DNA from: Butyrivibrio sp.
Lineage (GTDB): Bacteria > Bacillota > Clostridia > Lachnospirales > Lachnospiraceae
DNA: 64,000 nt
Assembly (NCBI RefSeq): GCF_017433805.1
Contig: NZ_JAFRGN010000011.1
Span: 62,001-126,000, forward strand
Direction of reading: 5' to 3'
Part shown: positions 4,435 to 46,510 of the stretch, in pieces
Layout of the letters: each line of letters begins with the position of its first letter
How positions within the stretch are numbered: position 1 is the stretch's first letter
Position numbers and translations under genes: made by a program
Notes under the pieces: model-generated
What the model saw: the letters and a program-made list of their open reading frames with translations, nothing else
What the model was told of the DNA's origin: nothing
Databases searched by the model: none

Positions 4435-5603
4435 AAGTTTACTCCATCTGAAATATTACAAATATATGATGAATACTTGCCTTCAAGGTTTGGATACTCC
4501 TTGAGGTAAAGTTCACCTACATGTCTTGTGATCTCTTCTGCCTTATCAGGCTCAATAATAGCCATACAGCAGCCTTTAAATCCAGCGCCGCTAAATCTTC
4601 CGCCATAAATACCATCAGTACCAGTCATGATATCATACAGGGAAATAAGCTCAGGACATCCGCATTCATAGTTTACAACTGAGCTCTTTCCACTTGCAAA
4701 AACAAGATTTCCATACTCGTCAAGATTGCCATTCTTCCATGCTTTAGCTCCAGCTTCTGCTCTTTCTATCTCTGTAAAGAAATGCTCAGCTCGCTTATAA
4801 AATTTCTCTGGAAGTCTGTCCTTGTAAGTGTCAAACACTTCTCTTGGAACATCTCTAAGCCTTGTGTCCGCAAACTTACCATACGGAAGTCCCGCATAGG
4901 ATAAAAGACTGTATGCAGCCGCCTTACACTCATCCTGGCGAAGGTTGTAATCACTGTTAGCAAGAGATCTCTCAAGACCACTAAAGAATATAGCTATCTT
5001 GAAGGGCTTCATATTCTCATTTGTCTGAATCAGCTCATAACTATCATCCGCGCAATCCAGATACAGAAGATGATTCTTTTTGCAGAGCACTTCACAGGAC
5101 TGGTCCAGTTTGCCACAGTTAACACCTACATACTTATTCTCCGCAGCCTTGGCCATCATGATAGCTTCCCACTGATCAAGAGAAATATTATTAACCTTTG
5201 CAAGAGCTGACAAAAAAGCAATAATTACTGCTGCAGAAGAGCTAAGTCCTCCGATAGGAAGCGATCCTTCAATAACAGCTGATAAACCCATTCTAAGCGG
5301 ATATTTCTCAGAAAGTTCCTTGGCTGCGCCTCTAAGATGATCGGCCCAGTCGCCTACTTTCTCATCAGGAATAGACATTACATGGAACTGTGCTCTTTTA
5401 GGAAAGTCCACAGACTGAACTTCTATGACACCGTTCATCTTTGCTGAATAAGCAATGTGAATACCCTTGTCTATAGCAAATCCATTGATCTTACCATACT
5501 GATGATCAATGTGTGCTCCAAGCGGAGATATTCTGTATGGGCAAAAAGCTATGCCCTCTGGATCTTTGTGATAAAACTGGTTGTAAACCTCAATACATTT
5601 CAT
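4431..5603 (-). CDS. GHMP kinase, galacturonokinase-like
   Basis: 390 residues with all three GHMP motifs: the sugar-binding N-terminus YRISPLGAHIDHQYG (residues 23-37), the ATP loop LPIGGLSSSAAV (about 115-126), and GGRFSGAGFKGCCMA near the C-terminus. Classical galactokinases have GEHTDYN in motif 1; here the sequence is GAHIDHQ. From memory the plant galacturonic acid kinase (Arabidopsis GalAK) has the same PLGAHIDHQ and GARFSGAGFRGCC motifs, as well as similar NLRxxEC and KRAEH segments, so phosphorylation of a hexuronic acid at C1 is more likely than of galactose. This is recall, not an alignment. Together with the next gene it could make a UDP-uronate for EPS. Confidence 0.82.
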   Translation of the reverse strand: MKCIEVYNQFYHKDPEGIAFCPYRISPLGAHIDHQYGKINGFAIDKGIHIAYSAKMNGVIEVQSVDFPKRAQFHVMSIPDEKVGDWADHLRGAAKELSEKYPLRMGLSAVIEGSLPIGGLSSSAAVIIAFLSALAKVNNISLDQWEAIMMAKAAENKYVGVNCGKLDQSCEVLCKKNHLLYLDCADDSYELIQTNENMKPFKIAIFFSGLERSLANSDYNLRQDECKAAAYSLLSYAGLPYGKFADTRLRDVPREVFDTYKDRLPEKFYKRAEHFFTEIERAEAGAKAWKNGNLDEYGNLVFASGKSSVVNYECGCPELISLYDIMTGTDGIYGGRFSGAGFKGCCMAIIEPDKAEEITRHVGELYLKEYPNLEGKYSSYICNISDGVNL

Positions 5604-38715: not shown

Positions 38716-38930
38716 AAACCACGACATCGGGGAATGCCGTGGTTTCCATAACGCTTATAAAAGGAAAGAGTAACCTTTATCCTGGAGGTATGGCCAAGGA
38801 TAAAGAAAGGAGGATATCAAATTCCCGTGTATCCTGGTGATACTCATTTATGTACACAGGGTACATACTAGATGTACCCTGCTTGTTTATTCCTTATATA
38901 AATATGCAATTCATGTGATATACGAATTGC
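38716..38930. ncRNA. Array of consecutive stem-loops, possible structured RNA
   Basis: Within 215 bases: AAACCACG.CAT/ATG.CGTGGTTT (38716-38745); CTTTATCCTGG/CC.AGGATAAAG (38775-38805); GTATC/GATAC (38829-38843); a perfect CAGGGTACAT/ATGTACCCTG with loop ACTAG (38857-38881) followed by CTTGTTTATT, terminator-like on the plus strand; GCAATTC/GAATTGC (38906-38930). TATCCTGG recurs at 38779 and 38830. An AAAGGAGG at 38806-38813 sits between stems 2 and 3. Strand and function unknown; no known RNA family recognised. Confidence 0.35.
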
Positions 38931-39017
38931 TCCATGACTAATGTCATTCTCGCAATTCTACATATATTCGGAAATCGCCTTTCGGCTTTTTTCCTCATAT
39001 ATGTTCGGTCATTTCAT

Positions 39018-39053
39018 AAACTTGGCGCTAAGTGCAAGCCCTGCACCAAGTTT
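39018..39053 (-). terminator. Stem-loop after the sugar-binding protein gene
   Basis: Minus strand AAACTTGGTGC paired with GCGCCAAGTTT (one G-U), just past the stop at 39072. No U-tract follows, so it may be an RNA-stabilising 3' hairpin rather than a classic terminator. Confidence 0.5.
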
Positions 39054-39071
39054 ACTTATTCCCTATATCAA

Positions 39072-40637
39072 TTACTTAGAAGCCTTCCATGTGTTGTACT
39101 GGTTCTGGAACTCAGCAAGAACGTCCTGATATCCAGCGCCGTCAAGAGCTGCCTGATAAGCTTCGATTGTAGACTCAACGTCTGCAGAAGCAACACCACC
39201 GTTCTCAAGAGCGAATCCGTACTCACCAGCTACGTTTGCACATGCTGTGTACTGAGCCTCTACAGGAGACTTGTCGAATCTGAATCCAGCTGCTGAAGAT
39301 GTGTTAGCACCACCGTTGAATGCATCATAGAGATCAGCCTTGTTAGCTGGCTCGTTTGAAAGTGGAGTAACGATAGTAGCGTTAGCTGACTCCCACATTG
39401 AGTGGTTGTACTTATCTGAGTTCTGCTCAACCTGATGGTTAGCATCGTATGTGAAGTCCTCACCCTCGATACCGAATGTATACATATCAGCGAGTGTTGA
39501 ATCTGTGTAAAGAAGTCCAAGGAAATCTACACAAGCCTGAGCCTGCTCAGGTGTTGAGTTTGCTGTTACGCAGTAGCAAGAACCAAGAGCTGATGTTGAA
39601 TGAGCCCATCTGCTTGTTGCAGGCTGCATTACAACTTCCTGACCATAACGAGCGTTAGCTTCGTCGTTAACTGGGATATCTGTCCACCATGTTACAGCCC
39701 AATCCTGTGTCTGAGTTGTCTGGTCGTTAGTTGTCTTTGTAGCGTCATCCTCTGATACATAGCCTTTTTCAGCCCAATCAGCCATAAGCTTAGCGAACTC
39801 AAGGTATTCAGGTGTAAGGATTGTATCTACAACTTCATCTGTCTTACGATCAACTGCTACGAAGTTTGCACCAGCATCAGCTGTGAAGAAATCAAAGCTG
39901 TCGATGTACCATCTGTAGAACATAGCTGTCTTCTGTGTAAGGAAAGGATACTTAAGTCCATCAGCCTTAGCATCTGCGAGCATTGGCTCGAGGTCTGCAA
40001 GCTTCTTAACTGATGTGATGTCCCAACCATGAGCGTCAACAACGTCCTTACGGAACATGAAGTCATAACCTTCTACATTGTCCTTGTATACAGGTACGAA
40101 GTAAATCTTGCCATCATACTTTGCTGCTTCCCACTGTCCTTCAGCCATTGAGCCATAAAGAGGTGTGCCTGGAAGAAGATCTGTAAGATCGTAAACAGCC
40201 TTAGCTGGATAAAGATCGTTTGTTCCGATTGTGCCTTCCCAAGATGCTGTCCAAAGAAGGTTGATCTCGTTGTTTGCAAGAGCAAGGTTAGCCTTCTCTG
40301 TGTACTCACCAGAACCGATATCTGTAAGTTTGATCTTTACATTGATCTTGTCAGCGATGTAAGCGTTGATTGCATCTTCAACCTTCTGAACCTGAGCTGA
40401 ATCAGGGTTAGCAACGTTGAATGAGCATCTGTAGAGGCTGATCTCTGTAGCATCTCCGCTTGCAGCTGGTGCCTCTGTAGCAGCTGCTGTGTCTGTGTTT
40501 GTGTCTGCTGCAGGTGTCTCTGTAGCAGTTGTGTCTGCAGGAGTCTCAGTTGTAGCTGGTGTTGAGCTTCCGCAGCCGGCAAGCAATGAAAGTGTCATTG
40601 CTGATACCATGAGCATTGATATAACTTTTTTCTTCAT
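39072..40637 (-). CDS. Extracellular sugar-binding lipoprotein of an ABC transporter (LplA/YtcQ-like)
   Basis: 521 residues. Lipoprotein signal MKKKVISMLMVSAMTLSLLAGC with lipobox LLAGC, then a Thr/Ala/Glu-rich linker of about 40 residues, then a large family 1-type binding domain (EISLYRCSFNVANPDSAQVQ; VEGYDFMFRKDVVDAHGWD; WAVTWWTDIPVNDEANARYG). Size and gene neighbours fit the LplA group, which binds oligosaccharides. Last gene of the LacI-permease-permease operon; a stem-loop in the gap before it may raise its expression over the permeases. Confidence 0.92.
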   Translation of the reverse strand: MKKKVISMLMVSAMTLSLLAGCGSSTPATTETPADTTATETPAADTNTDTAAATEAPAASGDATEISLYRCSFNVANPDSAQVQKVEDAINAYIADKINVKIKLTDIGSGEYTEKANLALANNEINLLWTASWEGTIGTNDLYPAKAVYDLTDLLPGTPLYGSMAEGQWEAAKYDGKIYFVPVYKDNVEGYDFMFRKDVVDAHGWDITSVKKLADLEPMLADAKADGLKYPFLTQKTAMFYRWYIDSFDFFTADAGANFVAVDRKTDEVVDTILTPEYLEFAKLMADWAEKGYVSEDDATKTTNDQTTQTQDWAVTWWTDIPVNDEANARYGQEVVMQPATSRWAHSTSALGSCYCVTANSTPEQAQACVDFLGLLYTDSTLADMYTFGIEGEDFTYDANHQVEQNSDKYNHSMWESANATIVTPLSNEPANKADLYDAFNGGANTSSAAGFRFDKSPVEAQYTACANVAGEYGFALENGGVASADVESTIEAYQAALDGAGYQDVLAEFQNQYNTWKASK

Positions 40638-40742: not shown

Positions 40743-41678
40743 TTAGCCCTTTACTGATCCAACAGTAAGACCTTTGATGAAGTACTTCTGGAAGAATGGA
40801 TATACTACCATAATAGGTCCAATAACTACCAGAACTGTTGCCATTGTTGATGAGTACTGTGGAATAGTACCACCCATGGCCGCTCTTGCAGATGCAGGAA
40901 CGTTTGCGTTGTTAAGAAGGAACTCAATACTCTTCTGGATATTGATGAGCAGGAGCTGCAAAGGCTTCTTGGCATCTGAATCAATATAAAGAAGTGCATT
41001 CTGCCAGTCATTCCAGTAAGCTGTAGCCATCATGAAACCTACGGCTGCAAGTGAAGGCTTAAGAAGTGGAAGTGTGATCTGGAAGAAGGTTCTGTACTCA
41101 CCAGCTCCGTCAATCTTGGCAGCTTCCATAAGCTCTCCAGGAATACTGTTAGCTATATATGTTCTAAGAATAATTACGTTCATAGTAGATACGCAAAGTG
41201 GAAGGATCAGGAGCCACAAGCTATCTTTTAATCCGTAGTAACTTGTGAATACGATATATCCTGAAAGTGTTCCTCCGTTGAACAGCATAGGAATCAGCAG
41301 ATAGATTGATAAAAATCTTGAAAGTCTGAAATCCTTACGGCTGATTGAATATGCGAACATACTCATGAACAAAAGTCCCATAAATGTTCCGGCTACTGTA
41401 ACAAAGATAGTTACAAGGTAAGACTGAGCAAGCTGCTTACCATATTTTAGAACTGCTGACATACCAGCCAGTGACCAGTCCTTGGGCCAGAATCTAAATC
41501 CGTTTACTGCGATACTCTTTTCATCTGTAAACGCAGCTACAAAAGTAAGTTCTACAGGAAGGAATGCAAACAATGTACATGCAAGAAGTATGATTGCCAG
41601 GATAACCTGTCCTACTGTAACCTTCTCCTCTTTAGAAGGAGCTATATCAAGTTTGTTATCTCTTTTTAACTTAGCCAT
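40743..41678 (-). CDS. Sugar ABC transporter permease (YtcP/LplC-like, CUT1)
   Basis: 311 residues, six membrane segments. The permease EAA loop is ELMEAAKIDGAGEYRTFFQITLPLLKPSLAAV, very typical of CUT1 inner-membrane partners. The C-terminus ends in QKYFIKGLTVGSVKG, the YtcP-type ending. Start at 41678, six bases after AGGGG. Partner of the permease encoded 24 bases upstream; the ATPase (MsmK-like) is not in the window. Confidence 0.94.
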   Translation of the reverse strand: MAKLKRDNKLDIAPSKEEKVTVGQVILAIILLACTLFAFLPVELTFVAAFTDEKSIAVNGFRFWPKDWSLAGMSAVLKYGKQLAQSYLVTIFVTVAGTFMGLLFMSMFAYSISRKDFRLSRFLSIYLLIPMLFNGGTLSGYIVFTSYYGLKDSLWLLILPLCVSTMNVIILRTYIANSIPGELMEAAKIDGAGEYRTFFQITLPLLKPSLAAVGFMMATAYWNDWQNALLYIDSDAKKPLQLLLINIQKSIEFLLNNANVPASARAAMGGTIPQYSSTMATVLVVIGPIMVVYPFFQKYFIKGLTVGSVKG

Positions 41679-41702
41679 CTCTTTCCCCTTTCTGGTCAAT
41701 AA

Positions 41703-42608
41703 TTAGAACAAAGCGTTCTCTGGTGCGATCTTGCGGACTGTTGTATTAGCAAACAACATCAGCAAGAGTCCTACAATTGACTGGAAGAAGGACGTTGCGG
41801 CTACAAATCCGAAGTTCGAACTACTAAAGATAGCATTCAGAACGTAGGAGTCGATAACCTGAGTTGTTGAATAGAGCATACCGTTGTTACGTGTTACCTG
41901 ATAGAAAAGACCTGTATCAGAGTGCATTACTGAACCAACTGAGAGAAGAAGCATTACTGTTACCATTGGAATAAGTGATGGAATAGTAATATGGAGGATC
42001 TTCTGCCATGAGTTCGCACCATCGATATCTGCTGCCTCGTACAGCTCTGAATCAATACCAGCAAGTACTGACATATAAAGAACTGAGCCGTATCCGGTAT
42101 CCTTCCAGATCTTAACTACAAGTAAGATGTATGGCCACAGCTTAGCCTGTGAATAGAATCTTGTTGTTGTGCCAAGCATGTGATTGATGATACCTGTGTC
42201 TGAACTAATGAATGCATATACGATGAACTGAACAGCTGCATAAGAAATGAAAACTGGAATGATCATCAGTGTCTGCATTGTCTTGGCCATTTTCTTGAAC
42301 ACCAGCTTATCGATCATGATCGCAAGTGTTACATTGAGGAATGTACCAACGATTGTGAACAGCAAGTAGTATAAAATTGTGTTCTTGGTGATTGAAATGA
42401 ATGTTGCCTTTGAAGCCAACAGGAACTTGAAGTTGTCAAGTCCGTTCCATGGGCTCTTCCAAATACCATCAACATAGTTGAAGTTCTTGAAAGCCATTAC
42501 CAAGCCGGCCATAGGCACGTACATGATAAAGAACAAAATTAGGAAAACAGGCAGCGCCATAATTACATGAGCTCTGTGCTTCCAGGTGTTTTTTAAGAAA
42601 TCTTTCAT
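41703..42608 (-). CDS. Sugar ABC transporter permease (LplB-like, CUT1)
   Basis: 301 residues, six membrane segments; starts with the LplB-type KHRAHVIMALPVFLILFFIMYVPMAGLVMAFKNF. EAA loop: ELYEAADIDGANSWQKILHITIPSLIPMV. C-terminal NTTVRKIAPENALF. Forms the channel with the downstream permease for the oligosaccharide bound by the lipoprotein; AGGGAG upstream. Confidence 0.94.
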   Translation of the reverse strand: MKDFLKNTWKHRAHVIMALPVFLILFFIMYVPMAGLVMAFKNFNYVDGIWKSPWNGLDNFKFLLASKATFISITKNTILYYLLFTIVGTFLNVTLAIMIDKLVFKKMAKTMQTLMIIPVFISYAAVQFIVYAFISSDTGIINHMLGTTTRFYSQAKLWPYILLVVKIWKDTGYGSVLYMSVLAGIDSELYEAADIDGANSWQKILHITIPSLIPMVTVMLLLSVGSVMHSDTGLFYQVTRNNGMLYSTTQVIDSYVLNAIFSSSNFGFVAATSFFQSIVGLLLMLFANTTVRKIAPENALF

Positions 42609-42631: not shown

Positions 42632-43657
42632 CTAGCTTATGCGAGCTACCGACTCTCCCCTCTCAATATTCCCTTTTACTACAACCTGTTCTACGATTGT
42701 CCCCTTGGGATTATTGATAAGATCTATCAGCTTAGAAGCTGCTACGGAGCCGATCTGTTCAGTATCCTGTACCATTGTTGTCAGTATAGGGCTGATCTTT
42801 CTCGCAAGCTCAATTCCGTCATAGCCTACAACCGAGACATCTTCCGGAATTCGAAGACCTCTTTTTCTAATAGCATTTATTCCGCCAAACGCAGCAAAAT
42901 CATCTGGGTAAAAAATACATGTTGGCGGTTCTTTTAAATCAAGAAGCTTAATAGTTGCTTCGTAAGCTGCATCTGTATCTCTGTATGGAACTGCAGGAAC
43001 ATACTCATCTGGGATATCTACTCCCAAATCCTGAAGAGTCTTGTAAAAGCTTGATAATCTGCTCTTTGTTACTGAAGATTCCATTCCTGACTCTTTGCCA
43101 TGGATGTAAGCGATTTTCCTGTGACCCTGCTCATATACATAAGTAGCAAGTTCATTTATTCCATTGACATTGTCAGACATGATAGCCGTTCTGTTATAAA
43201 ACAGATGGTCAATTGTGACCACCGGGATTTCACTCTTAATAAGTTCATCTACCTGAGGATCTGAAAAATCCACACAGGCTATAACAATTCCATCAAAGCC
43301 TCTGTAAATTGCATGTGATAAATAGGACATGTTGTTAAGTCTCTTATTACCACTGTTGATGAATGTTATATCGTAGCCATTTTCCTCTGCTGTTCTCTTG
43401 AAACTGTCCAGCACATGATTGAAATAGTCATGTGTAAGTCCGCTGTTTGCTTCATCTACAAAGAGGACTCCTATATTATTTGTTCTATTTGTCTTAAGAG
43501 CCTGTGCTGCTGCGTTTGGTCTGTATCCAAGCTTATCAGCCACCTCTCTTACATGTTTCTTGGTCTCCTGGCTGATATCGCTATGATCGTTAAGTGCCTT
43601 GGATACTGTAGCAACCGATACCCCACAAGCCTTTGAAATGTCTTTTAGTGATACCAT
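42632..43657 (-). CDS. LacI family regulator of the cellobiose phosphorylase/transport locus
   Basis: 341 residues. HTH VSLKDISKACGVSVATVSKALNDHSDIS, hinge AAAQALKTN, and a sugar-binding domain (IGVLFVDEANSGLTHDYFNHV; CIFYPDDFAAFGGINAIRKRG; VSVVGYDGIELARKISPILTTM). First gene of the transport operon and divergent from the GH94 gene. Operator-like copies of CGAAAACG(T/A)TT lie just downstream of both promoters, implying autoregulation and repression of the phosphorylase, released by a sugar ligand. Ribosome binding site is weak. Confidence 0.93.
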   Translation of the reverse strand: MVSLKDISKACGVSVATVSKALNDHSDISQETKKHVREVADKLGYRPNAAAQALKTNRTNNIGVLFVDEANSGLTHDYFNHVLDSFKRTAEENGYDITFINSGNKRLNNMSYLSHAIYRGFDGIVIACVDFSDPQVDELIKSEIPVVTIDHLFYNRTAIMSDNVNGINELATYVYEQGHRKIAYIHGKESGMESSVTKSRLSSFYKTLQDLGVDIPDEYVPAVPYRDTDAAYEATIKLLDLKEPPTCIFYPDDFAAFGGINAIRKRGLRIPEDVSVVGYDGIELARKISPILTTMVQDTEQIGSVAASKLIDLINNPKGTIVEQVVVKGNIERGESVARIS

Positions 43658-44025: not shown

Positions 44026-44056
44026 GTTTATTTATAATCAAATGGGAGGTTTAATA

Positions 44057-46435
44057 ATGAAATACGGTTTCTTTGATGATGCAGCCTTAGAGTATGTCAT
44101 CACCACACCCAAAACTCCATTGCCATGGATCAACTACCTCGGCAACAAAGAGTTCTTTTCACTGATATCTAACACATGCGGTGGATACACATTCTATAAG
44201 GATGCGAAACTGCTCCGCCTCACCAGATATCGTTACAACAATGTTCCATATGATAACAACGGTAAGTATTTCTATATTAAGGACAATACTGATTCCGCTA
44301 ATACTGTTGTATGGAATCCAGGCTGGCAGCCTGTTAAGACTGCACTTGATAAATATGAGTGCCGTCATGGTCTTGGCTACAGCACATTTACATCTACCAA
44401 GAATAATGTAGAAGCCAAGGTTCTCACTTTTGTACCTATGAACGATAACTGTGAGATTTCCAAGGTAACTATTACCAATAATAAAGAAACCGCTGCTAAG
44501 CTTTCTCTTTTCTCATATGTAGAATGGTGTCTCTGGAATGCAGATGATGATATGAAGAACTTCCAGAGAAACTTAAGCACAGGTGAAGTAGAAGTTACAG
44601 ATAATGGCTCTACAATCTACCACAAGACTGAGTACAGAGAGAGACGTAATCACTATGCTATTTACAGCGTTAACACAGCTGTTGATGGTTTTGATACCAG
44701 CAGAGATGCTTTCCTTGGCGCTTACAACGGACCAGATAGTCCTGACGTAGTTGCAGAGGGCAAGTGCACAAACTCTGTGGCAAGTGGATGGTCTCCAATC
44801 GCTTCTCAGCAGATCAATCTTGAGCTTGCTGCTGGCGAGTCCAAGACATTCATCTTCGTTCTTGGTTATATCGAGAACCCAGAGGATGACAAGTGGGAGG
44901 CTCCAGGCGTAGTTAACAAGAAGCCTGCTCTTAAGATGCTCGAAGCATACAAGACAGAGGCTGCTGTTGATGCTGCTCTTGTAGAACTCAAGAACTACTG
45001 GAAAGAGCTCCTTTCCAATTACCATATTTCTTCTTCTAACGAGAAGGTTGATCGTATGGTCAACATCTGGAACCAGTATCAGTGTATGGTTACATTCAAC
45101 ATGTCACGTTCTGCTTCCTACTACGAGTCAGGTATCGGCCGTGGAATGGGCTTTAGAGATTCCTGCCAGGATCTTCTTGGTTTCGTTCACCTGATTCCAG
45201 ACAGAGCAAGACAGCGTATCATTGATATCGCTTCTACTCAGTTCCAGGATGGTAGCGCATACCACCAGTATCAGCCACTTACCAAGAAGGGTAACTCCGA
45301 CATCGGTTCTGGCTTCAATGATGATCCATTATGGCTCATCGCTGGTACAAGTGCTTATGTAAGAGAGACAGGCGACCTTTCTATCTTAAAAGAAATGGTT
45401 CCTTTCGATAACGATATGAGTGTAGCTAAGACTCTTATGGGTCACCTTAAGTGCTCATTTGATTTCACAGCTACTCACAAGGGTCCTCATGGACTTCCTC
45501 TTATCGGACGTGCTGACTGGAATGACTGTCTGAACCTTAACTGCTTCTCAGAGCACCCAGGCGAATCCTTCCAGACCTTTGGTCCTTCAGAAGGTCCTGT
45601 AGCTGAATCAGTATTCATCGCTGGTATGTTTGTTAAGTACGGTGAGGAGTACGCTCAGCTTGCAGAGCTCCTTGGAGACGATGCTGAAGCTAAGAGAGCA
45701 CGTGAAGAGATTGCCAAGGTTTACGAGGCAGCTATCACAGCTGGTTGGGACGGTGAATGGTTCGTTCGTGCTTATGACGCATATTCCAACAAGGTTGGTT
45801 CAAAAGAGTGTGAGGAAGGCCAGATCTTCATCGAGCCTCAGGGCTTCTGCGTACTTGCAGGCATCGGTGTTAAGGAAGGTCTTGCAGAGAAAGCACTTAA
45901 GAGTGTTGAAGAGAGACTTGATACCAAGTATGGCGTAATGATCCTTCAGCCTGCATACACCAAGTATCACCTTGAACTCGGTGAGGTTTCTTCTTATCCA
46001 CCAGGATACAAGGAGAACGCAGGTATCTTCTGCCACAACAATCCTTGGGTATCAATTGCTGAGACAGTTCTTGGTCACGGCGACAGAGCTTTCGAGATCT
46101 ATAGAAAAACATGTCCTGCTTACATCGAGGACATCAGTGAGATTCACTGCACAGAGCCATATGTATATTCACAGATGGTTGCAGGTAGAGACGCTAAGTT
46201 CTTTGGACAGGGCAAGAACAGCTGGCTCACAGGTACAGCTGCATGGACCTTTGTTAATATCTCCCAGTACATCCTGGGTGTATATCCTACACACAACGGT
46301 CTTTCAATCAATCCTTGTGTTCCTGCTGACTTTGGCGATTTCGAGATCACAAGAAAATACAGAGATGCTGTATATCACATCAGTGTTAAACAGAACGGTA
46401 CTCAGAAGGGTATCAAGAAGCTCACAGTAAACTGA
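44057..46435 (+). CDS. Cellobiose phosphorylase (GH94), ended early by an in-frame TGA
   Basis: 792 residues to the first stop. Phosphorolyses cellobiose to glucose-1-phosphate and glucose. Family landmarks: start [79 protein letters not shown] with the general acid as the second Asp (residue 490), and [22 protein letters not shown] is seven bases before the ATG; upstream in-frame ATGs lie within the operator and are rejected. After the stop the same frame continues for 24 codons with a normal-looking GH94 tail (see 46433-46510). The gene is probably still active but may lack its last strand. Cellobiose is preferred by similarity; cellodextrin cannot be excluded. Confidence 0.94.
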
Positions 46436-46510
46436 ACAGAGGTTTCAGGCAACGTTATTCCTTACGAGTCAGGTGTAAAAGAGTACACTGTTGTTGCTGA
46501 AATGGGCTGA
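46433..46510 (+). other. In-frame continuation of the GH94 gene after TGA
   Basis: TGA at 46433-46435 is followed in frame by 24 codons reading TEVSGNVIPYESGVKEY then TVVAEMG and a second TGA at 46508-46510. From memory GH94 enzymes end with a similar LTVNGKxxxGNxIPxxxxG..VxVxMG tail. The TGA stands where the family has Gly in VNG, one base from GGA. So it is a recent nonsense change, a sequencing error, or a readthrough site. Confidence 0.75.

Follow-up and report, generated by a model that had tools for sequence, protein, structure and literature searches.

The described gene with which the locus reported here is best compared is Cbp94A (Bpr_I2447), a cellobiose phosphorylase of Butyrivibrio proteoclasticus B316, which we take to be probably the orthologue found in G063, the closest relative of the genome under study (G000). 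The G063 protein is 98% identical to ours, and its gene has the same LacI regulator and ABC transporter neighbours. The two genes differ at their 3' ends: the G063 gene is intact, encodes 817 residues and has GGA as codon 793, whereas the gene of G000 stops after residue 792. Cbp94A of B316 appears in an LC-MS/MS table excerpted from PMC5217386, and an excerpt of PMC6344614 describes cbp94A of strain MB2003 as raised in monoculture on pectin; cellobiose phosphorylase is thus in use in related strains (PMC5217386; PMC6344614). An excerpt of PMC5716241 lists the MB2003 gene with 814 residues.

The window, that is the whole stretch of DNA that we analysed, comprises 64,000 nucleotides within contig C4 of the G000 draft. 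The solved proteins nearest to its phosphorylase are themselves cellobiose phosphorylases, matched over nearly the whole length, among them 3qde, 8ho7, 3rrs and 2cqs, which we believe to come from Clostridium thermocellum, Cellulomonas and Cellvibrio. All five solved cellobiose phosphorylases among the alignments listed carry a glycine at the place of the stop and the stretch that follows it, whereas the window protein as written has neither.

A cellobiose phosphorylase gene with an in-frame TGA

The gene spans positions 44057 to 46435 on the forward strand and encodes 792 residues as written, with a ribosome-binding site (GGGAGG, 44044-44049) placed 7 bases ahead of the ATG at 44057. Both GH94 domains score over their cut-offs (PF17167, 557.1 bits against 27; PF06165, 302.9 bits against 23), and the motif RADWND (R485, A486, D487, W488, N489 and D490), whose Asp is presumably the catalytic Asp of GH94, does not vary among 38 aligned proteins, one of which is the window's. 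By its domains and motif, the gene is an ordinary, cbp94A-like GH94 cellobiose phosphorylase with predicted activity. The nearest named matches of its protein, from Butyrivibrio sp. INlla14 (96%) and AE2015 (92%), mark the genome as Butyrivibrio-like, and it is the sole cellobiose phosphorylase match in G000.

Four genes on the reverse strand precede it. A LacI-family regulator (42632-43657; PF00356 and PF13377; 97% identical in G063) is divergent from the phosphorylase gene and is followed by two ABC transporter permeases, probably for sugars (41703-42608 and 40743-41699; PF00528 in both; each 97% identical in G063), and by a probable solute-binding protein of the same transporter (39072-40637; 96% identical in G063), in which only PF12010/DUF3502 was matched and whose role is suggested by its neighbours. 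This order, with the phosphorylase divergent from the regulator and the three transporter genes, is the same in G063. Just past the end of the transporter genes, on the same strand, lies a Clostridiales-1 RNA (Rfam RF01699, 94.9 bits; 38916-39070).

The original prediction, made from the letters of the window, held that a TGA cuts a conserved tail off this enzyme through a single base change in an otherwise intact gene. The sequence bears out the arrangement: the TGA at 46433-46435 (from C4:108433) is in frame with the ATG and is followed by 24 codons in the same frame (46436-46507), which read TEVSGNVIPYESGVKEYTVVAEMG and run up to a second TGA (46508-46510), where the gene normally ends by comparison with relatives. 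The first of these codons, directly after the stop, is ACA (Thr794, 46436-46438), where the two closest full-length relatives compared have AAA or AAG (Lys). As written, the window protein thus lacks the complete C-terminus of its clade. The rest of the gene and its collinear neighbours show no other damage. When about 35 collinear window genes were compared with G063 by eye, no other interior stop was seen, the remaining flagged stops being in shadow ORFs; a region of generally poor quality is therefore not supported.

Conservation of the tail and age of the stop

We surveyed the 3' end at 152 loci, the window's own included, of which 150 are complete there and 127 of those distinct. In each of the 126 distinct relatives, the position of the stop is a glycine, and 23-35 residues are counted from that glycine on. 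The tail is accordingly the normal end of these GH94 proteins, as had been proposed, and no relative surveyed lacks it. The same residue, Gly793, is invariant in the 37 other aligned proteins (38 if the window's TGA is read as Gly). In the genus search (79 genomes of related species, own included; 74 with a match), none of the 70 other orthologues spanning the site, as counted from the listing, has a stop inside, and our own genome has the one TGA. Since G063 has GGA at this codon, a one-base change (G to T) explains the stop, as originally suggested. TGA 46433 thus replaces an invariant Gly codon through one base, and does so in this genome alone.

One locus was left out of the tail survey, L148 (L148:451-2850) of G054, a member of another family of the same order, whose gene breaks further upstream. 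In this GH94 cellobiose phosphorylase, too, a TGA interrupts the frame, at codon 714 as read; judged by eye, it takes the position of an almost invariant Cys, and the sequence beyond it is divergent.

We then considered how long the tail has been under selection. The window gene and that of G063 are 89% identical as DNA. Over codons 1 to 792 the two carry 228 synonymous and 13 amino-acid differences, and over the last 26 codons, beginning with the stop, they show 8 synonymous changes, one missense change (Lys794 to Thr) and the stop itself; codon 794 is Lys (AAA/AAG) in close relatives, and Thr is also present there in more distant ones. Because the tail holds 8 synonymous changes against one missense change and the stop, it was under purifying selection for nearly all of the divergence from G063, until very recently. 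The stop would then have to be of very recent date, an artefact or a codon that is read through. That recombination replaced the tail is not supported, as its synonymous rate resembles that of the body (8/26 versus 228/792 codons).

If the base is real, the enzyme of 792 residues would lack the end of its C-terminal jelly-roll domain and would probably be unstable or weakly active, a prediction from the sequence together with the domain layout in an excerpt of PMC10572201. A genuine and very recent nonsense mutation (Gly793, GGA to TGA), separate from the other stops of the assembly and removing the last 25 residues, would probably impair the enzyme in this way. One base is enough to produce it from the state of the closest relative, and pseudogenes are normal in the genus, with 17, 49 and 54 in three genomes in an excerpt of PMC5716241. 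The same excerpted source describes three Butyrivibrio strains that grow well on cellobiose, however, and the gene lost here would be the genome's only match for this enzyme. The absence of further damage in the gene and around it also counts against a real loss, as do stops in the same assembly, described below, where function should not truly have been lost, although genes that are probably dispensable (those of a P-type ATPase and a binding protein) hold stops here as well. Overall, we regard a genuine mutation as doubtful, ranking it after sequence error and ahead of nonsense suppression.

In-frame stops elsewhere in the assembly

The G000 assembly otherwise looks sound (3.45 Mb in 74 contigs, one of 447 kb; 98.15% complete, 0.16% contamination). 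In about 960 kb of it we found six in-frame stops, of all three kinds: TGA in the phosphorylase and in one GlmS, TAG in EF-G and in EngB, and TAA in a lipoprotein as well as in a P-type ATPase. EF-G and EngB are normally essential in bacteria. The new point beyond the single TGA is this context of in-frame stops in normally essential genes of the same assembly.

The first comparison set 164 kb of contig C4 against the collinear region of G063, with 81 G063 genes. Four of these have a stop in the G000 DNA, one of them ahead of the likely start; the interior ones are in the phosphorylase, EF-G and EngB. A wider comparison, of 564 kb of G000 with 640 kb of G063 (335 genes, 117,795 residues), flagged 21 stops. 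Four were judged interior to real genes, namely those three and that of the P-type ATPase, and the other 17 were set aside by eye because they precede a probable start, fall within the closing residues or sit in small shadow ORFs. In the reverse comparison (329 genes), 21 stops were likewise flagged in G063, and none was judged interior to a real gene. Frameshift-like cases numbered zero in G000 (335 genes by homology) and three in G063, where the ORFs concerned are 63 to 109 residues long. Scanning another 398 kb of G000 for coding potential added two convincing stops (GlmS and the lipoprotein), and a more permissive scan of contigs C6, C34 and C64 found no further convincing one.

The EF-G gene (L200:2189-4303, minus strand) has its TAG at Tyr493 (C4:4827), and 20 of 20 residues on each side of it are identical to G063. 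The genus search listed 52 orthologous matches of at least 74% identity (50 near full length and two partial), and an internal stop was present in two of them, those of G000 and G018. In the latter, an incomplete genome, a TAG stands where G063 has Gln56 (L311; G018:C230). The C-terminal fragment of EF-G in G000 corresponds to domain IV and the C-terminal domain, and a product of 492 residues should be non-functional, judging from its sequence. A truncation of EF-G after residue 492 should kill the cell, so some of the stops in G000 cannot be literal. A second EF-G-like gene, 38% identical and present in G000 and many other members of the genus, offers a small escape from this lethality.

In the gene of the GTPase EngB (L246:1501-2097), TAG replaces Tyr174 (C4:58019) just ahead of SALSKEG, and 18/20 and 19/20 of the flanking residues are identical to G063. 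Six other genomes have a stop in the matched stretch; in G096 it falls at residue 197 of a total of 200, and the remaining five matches are at most 69% identical.

The third case concerns one of two GlmS genes (L349:4621-6496, minus strand), whose open frame is broken by a TGA at codon 531 (position 4906; C64:4906). This site is Gly in 28 of the 29 relatives examined and Asn in one, and the codon ahead of it is CCT, as against GAC, GAT or AAT in the eight relatives shown; such clustered changes are not well explained by single random errors. The second copy, 42-44% identical, is open up to the end of contig C63. The GlmS search also returned a TGA in G012, in a second, 68% identical match.

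The two TAA stops are in contig C6, both in minus-strand genes. One lies near the N-terminus of the P-type ATPase (C6:256746, in L285), where G063 has Val, and the other inside a lipoprotein that looks sugar-binding (C6:351658, in L336).

With in-frame stops elsewhere, in EF-G and EngB among others, we place less trust in the base at 46433. The original prediction had offered a fresh mutation or an error: one of the two is indeed likely, and they are not separable at this site by the site itself, the stops elsewhere being what lowers confidence in the base.

Sequence error or altered reading of stop codons

The likeliest explanation in our view, held with evenly balanced confidence, is that TGA 46433 is a base-level error of the draft assembly with the same cause as the other stops, and not a working truncation or a recoding signal. 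Base-level consensus errors would be the source of the in-frame stops in EF-G, EngB and the others, and the same cause would apply at 46433. This explanation leads because the EF-G and EngB stops should not be literal truncations and because an error needs no new biology. Errors are expected to put stops into genes whose loss a cell should not survive and which are free of them in most relatives, as is the situation in EF-G and EngB. Against it, the assembly otherwise looks good, missense changes are not in excess, and a second EF-G-like gene and a second GlmS are present. Taking sequence error and a trivial recent mutation together, one or the other probably accounts for the stop, rather than a new mechanism.

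We examined whether random errors agree with the numbers of other changes. Random substitutions in these codons should give 17.4 missense changes per nonsense change. Across 39 genes and 16,434 codon sites common to G000, G063, G068 and G014, only G000 has stops, three in all; its ratio of private missense to synonymous changes is 156/824 (0.19), and the ratios of the others are 182/1084 (0.17), 188/938 (0.20) and 588/1437 (0.41). If the three stops were random errors at the local rate, more missense changes would be expected than are seen (P ~0.004, on the assumption that 85% of missense errors fall at conserved sites and are visible). At the lower rate of the 335 genes, the extra missense changes would be invisible, yet three stops in the 39-gene set would then have P ~0.02. 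Both P values come from small tests made after the data were seen. At 1289 codons invariant in relatives (510 in the phosphorylase, 625 in EF-G and 154 in EngB, genes chosen for their stops), G000 has no private amino-acid change other than the three stops, so that these genes show no decay. Where all other sequences agree, the private bases of G000 number one in the phosphorylase (the stop; 1177 columns), none in EF-G (1505) and none in EngB (333), a result that tells us little. Both TAG stops replace Tyr and both TGA stops replace Gly, which is not expected of random errors (n = four). Like the usual nonsense mutations and errors of draft genomes, the phosphorylase stop is a private, unconserved one-base change; G000 differs from that pattern in the placing of TAG on Tyr and TGA on Gly and in showing no excess of missense changes.

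Since these weak statistics count against purely random errors, we keep nonsense suppression as a second way of accounting for all the stops together, an unlikely one. Suppressor tRNAs, reading for example UGA as Gly and UAG as Tyr, would make stops nearly silent and let them accumulate without missense changes. The pairing of TAG with Tyr and of TGA with Gly favours this a little, and the two TAA stops fit neither suppressor. The conserved residues flanking the EF-G and EngB stops (20/20 on both sides; 18/20 and 19/20), the coding constraint kept in the phosphorylase tail and the normal missense level are also consistent with suppression, for which the evidence amounts to only six events. It would also be unusual for a single strain to carry two suppressors.

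The stop-codon reading machinery of G000 bears on this directly. RF2 scores over its cut-off, and a second release factor gene, RF1 by sequence, is open and 96% identical to its match in G063. No UCA, CUA or UUA anticodon was found when the loci of the 40 tRNA places were scanned with ARAGORN, or in the other DNA examined. The list holds no tRNA for Ala, Ile or Asp and is thus incomplete, so a suppressor tRNA could have been missed. TGA closes many ordinary open frames, and TGA and TAG still close frames of good coding score, which, with both release factor genes open, rules out a complete change of code.

In genetic code 25, UGA is read as Gly in Gracilibacteria and SR1. G000 resembles these in having TGA at the Gly of relatives in the phosphorylase and in one GlmS copy; it differs in having RF2, many frames ended by TGA and no cognate tRNA found. 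That a free-living rumen Butyrivibrio would naturally read UAG as Tyr and UGA as Gly, in an early codon reassignment with both release factors kept, seems to us decidedly improbable. Our literature search found no paper on stop codon readthrough in Lachnospiraceae, nonsense suppression in Butyrivibrio or premature stops in assemblies, and the main text of a screen of genetic codes (PMC8629427) does not name Butyrivibrio or Lachnospir.

The original prediction had also allowed for programmed readthrough at TGA 46433, to which selenocysteine insertion may be added. The tail is in frame and conserved, in favour of either process, yet the same stop occurs in none of the 70 other orthologues of the genus and the residue replaced is Gly, not Cys. 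In the draft assembly, the best match to tRNA-Sec (RF01852) falls under the gathering score and sits on a tRNA-Ser gene, and no match to SelB (TIGR00475) exceeds the cut-off. The genome has RF2, and none of the 40 tRNA places gave a UCA anticodon. We reject both processes as highly improbable, on the grounds that the stop is private to one genome and that neither tRNA-Sec nor SelB passes.

Returning to sequence error as the favoured explanation, the single stop in the phosphorylase carries little weight, and the strain should not be described as defective in cellobiose phosphorylase on the strength of this draft. The stops in EF-G and EngB matter more. If they are not real, the assembly needs correction. 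If they are real, the strain must suppress stop codons and would offer one of the few living examples of a codon reassignment under way. Under suppression, the phosphorylase stop would be nearly silent and the in-frame stops in EF-G and EngB tolerated.

One tRNA of G000 deserves separate mention. The sole tRNA-Trp(CCA) found (L181:435-507) has the lowest score of the 40 tRNA matches, and the two top pairs of its anticodon stem are mismatched in the Rfam alignment. Its pattern was absent from the viral contigs (searched with two exact patterns), plasmids and other loci searched. It recalls tRNAs with shortened anticodon stems, which an excerpt of PMC13092985 reports to promote UGA readthrough.
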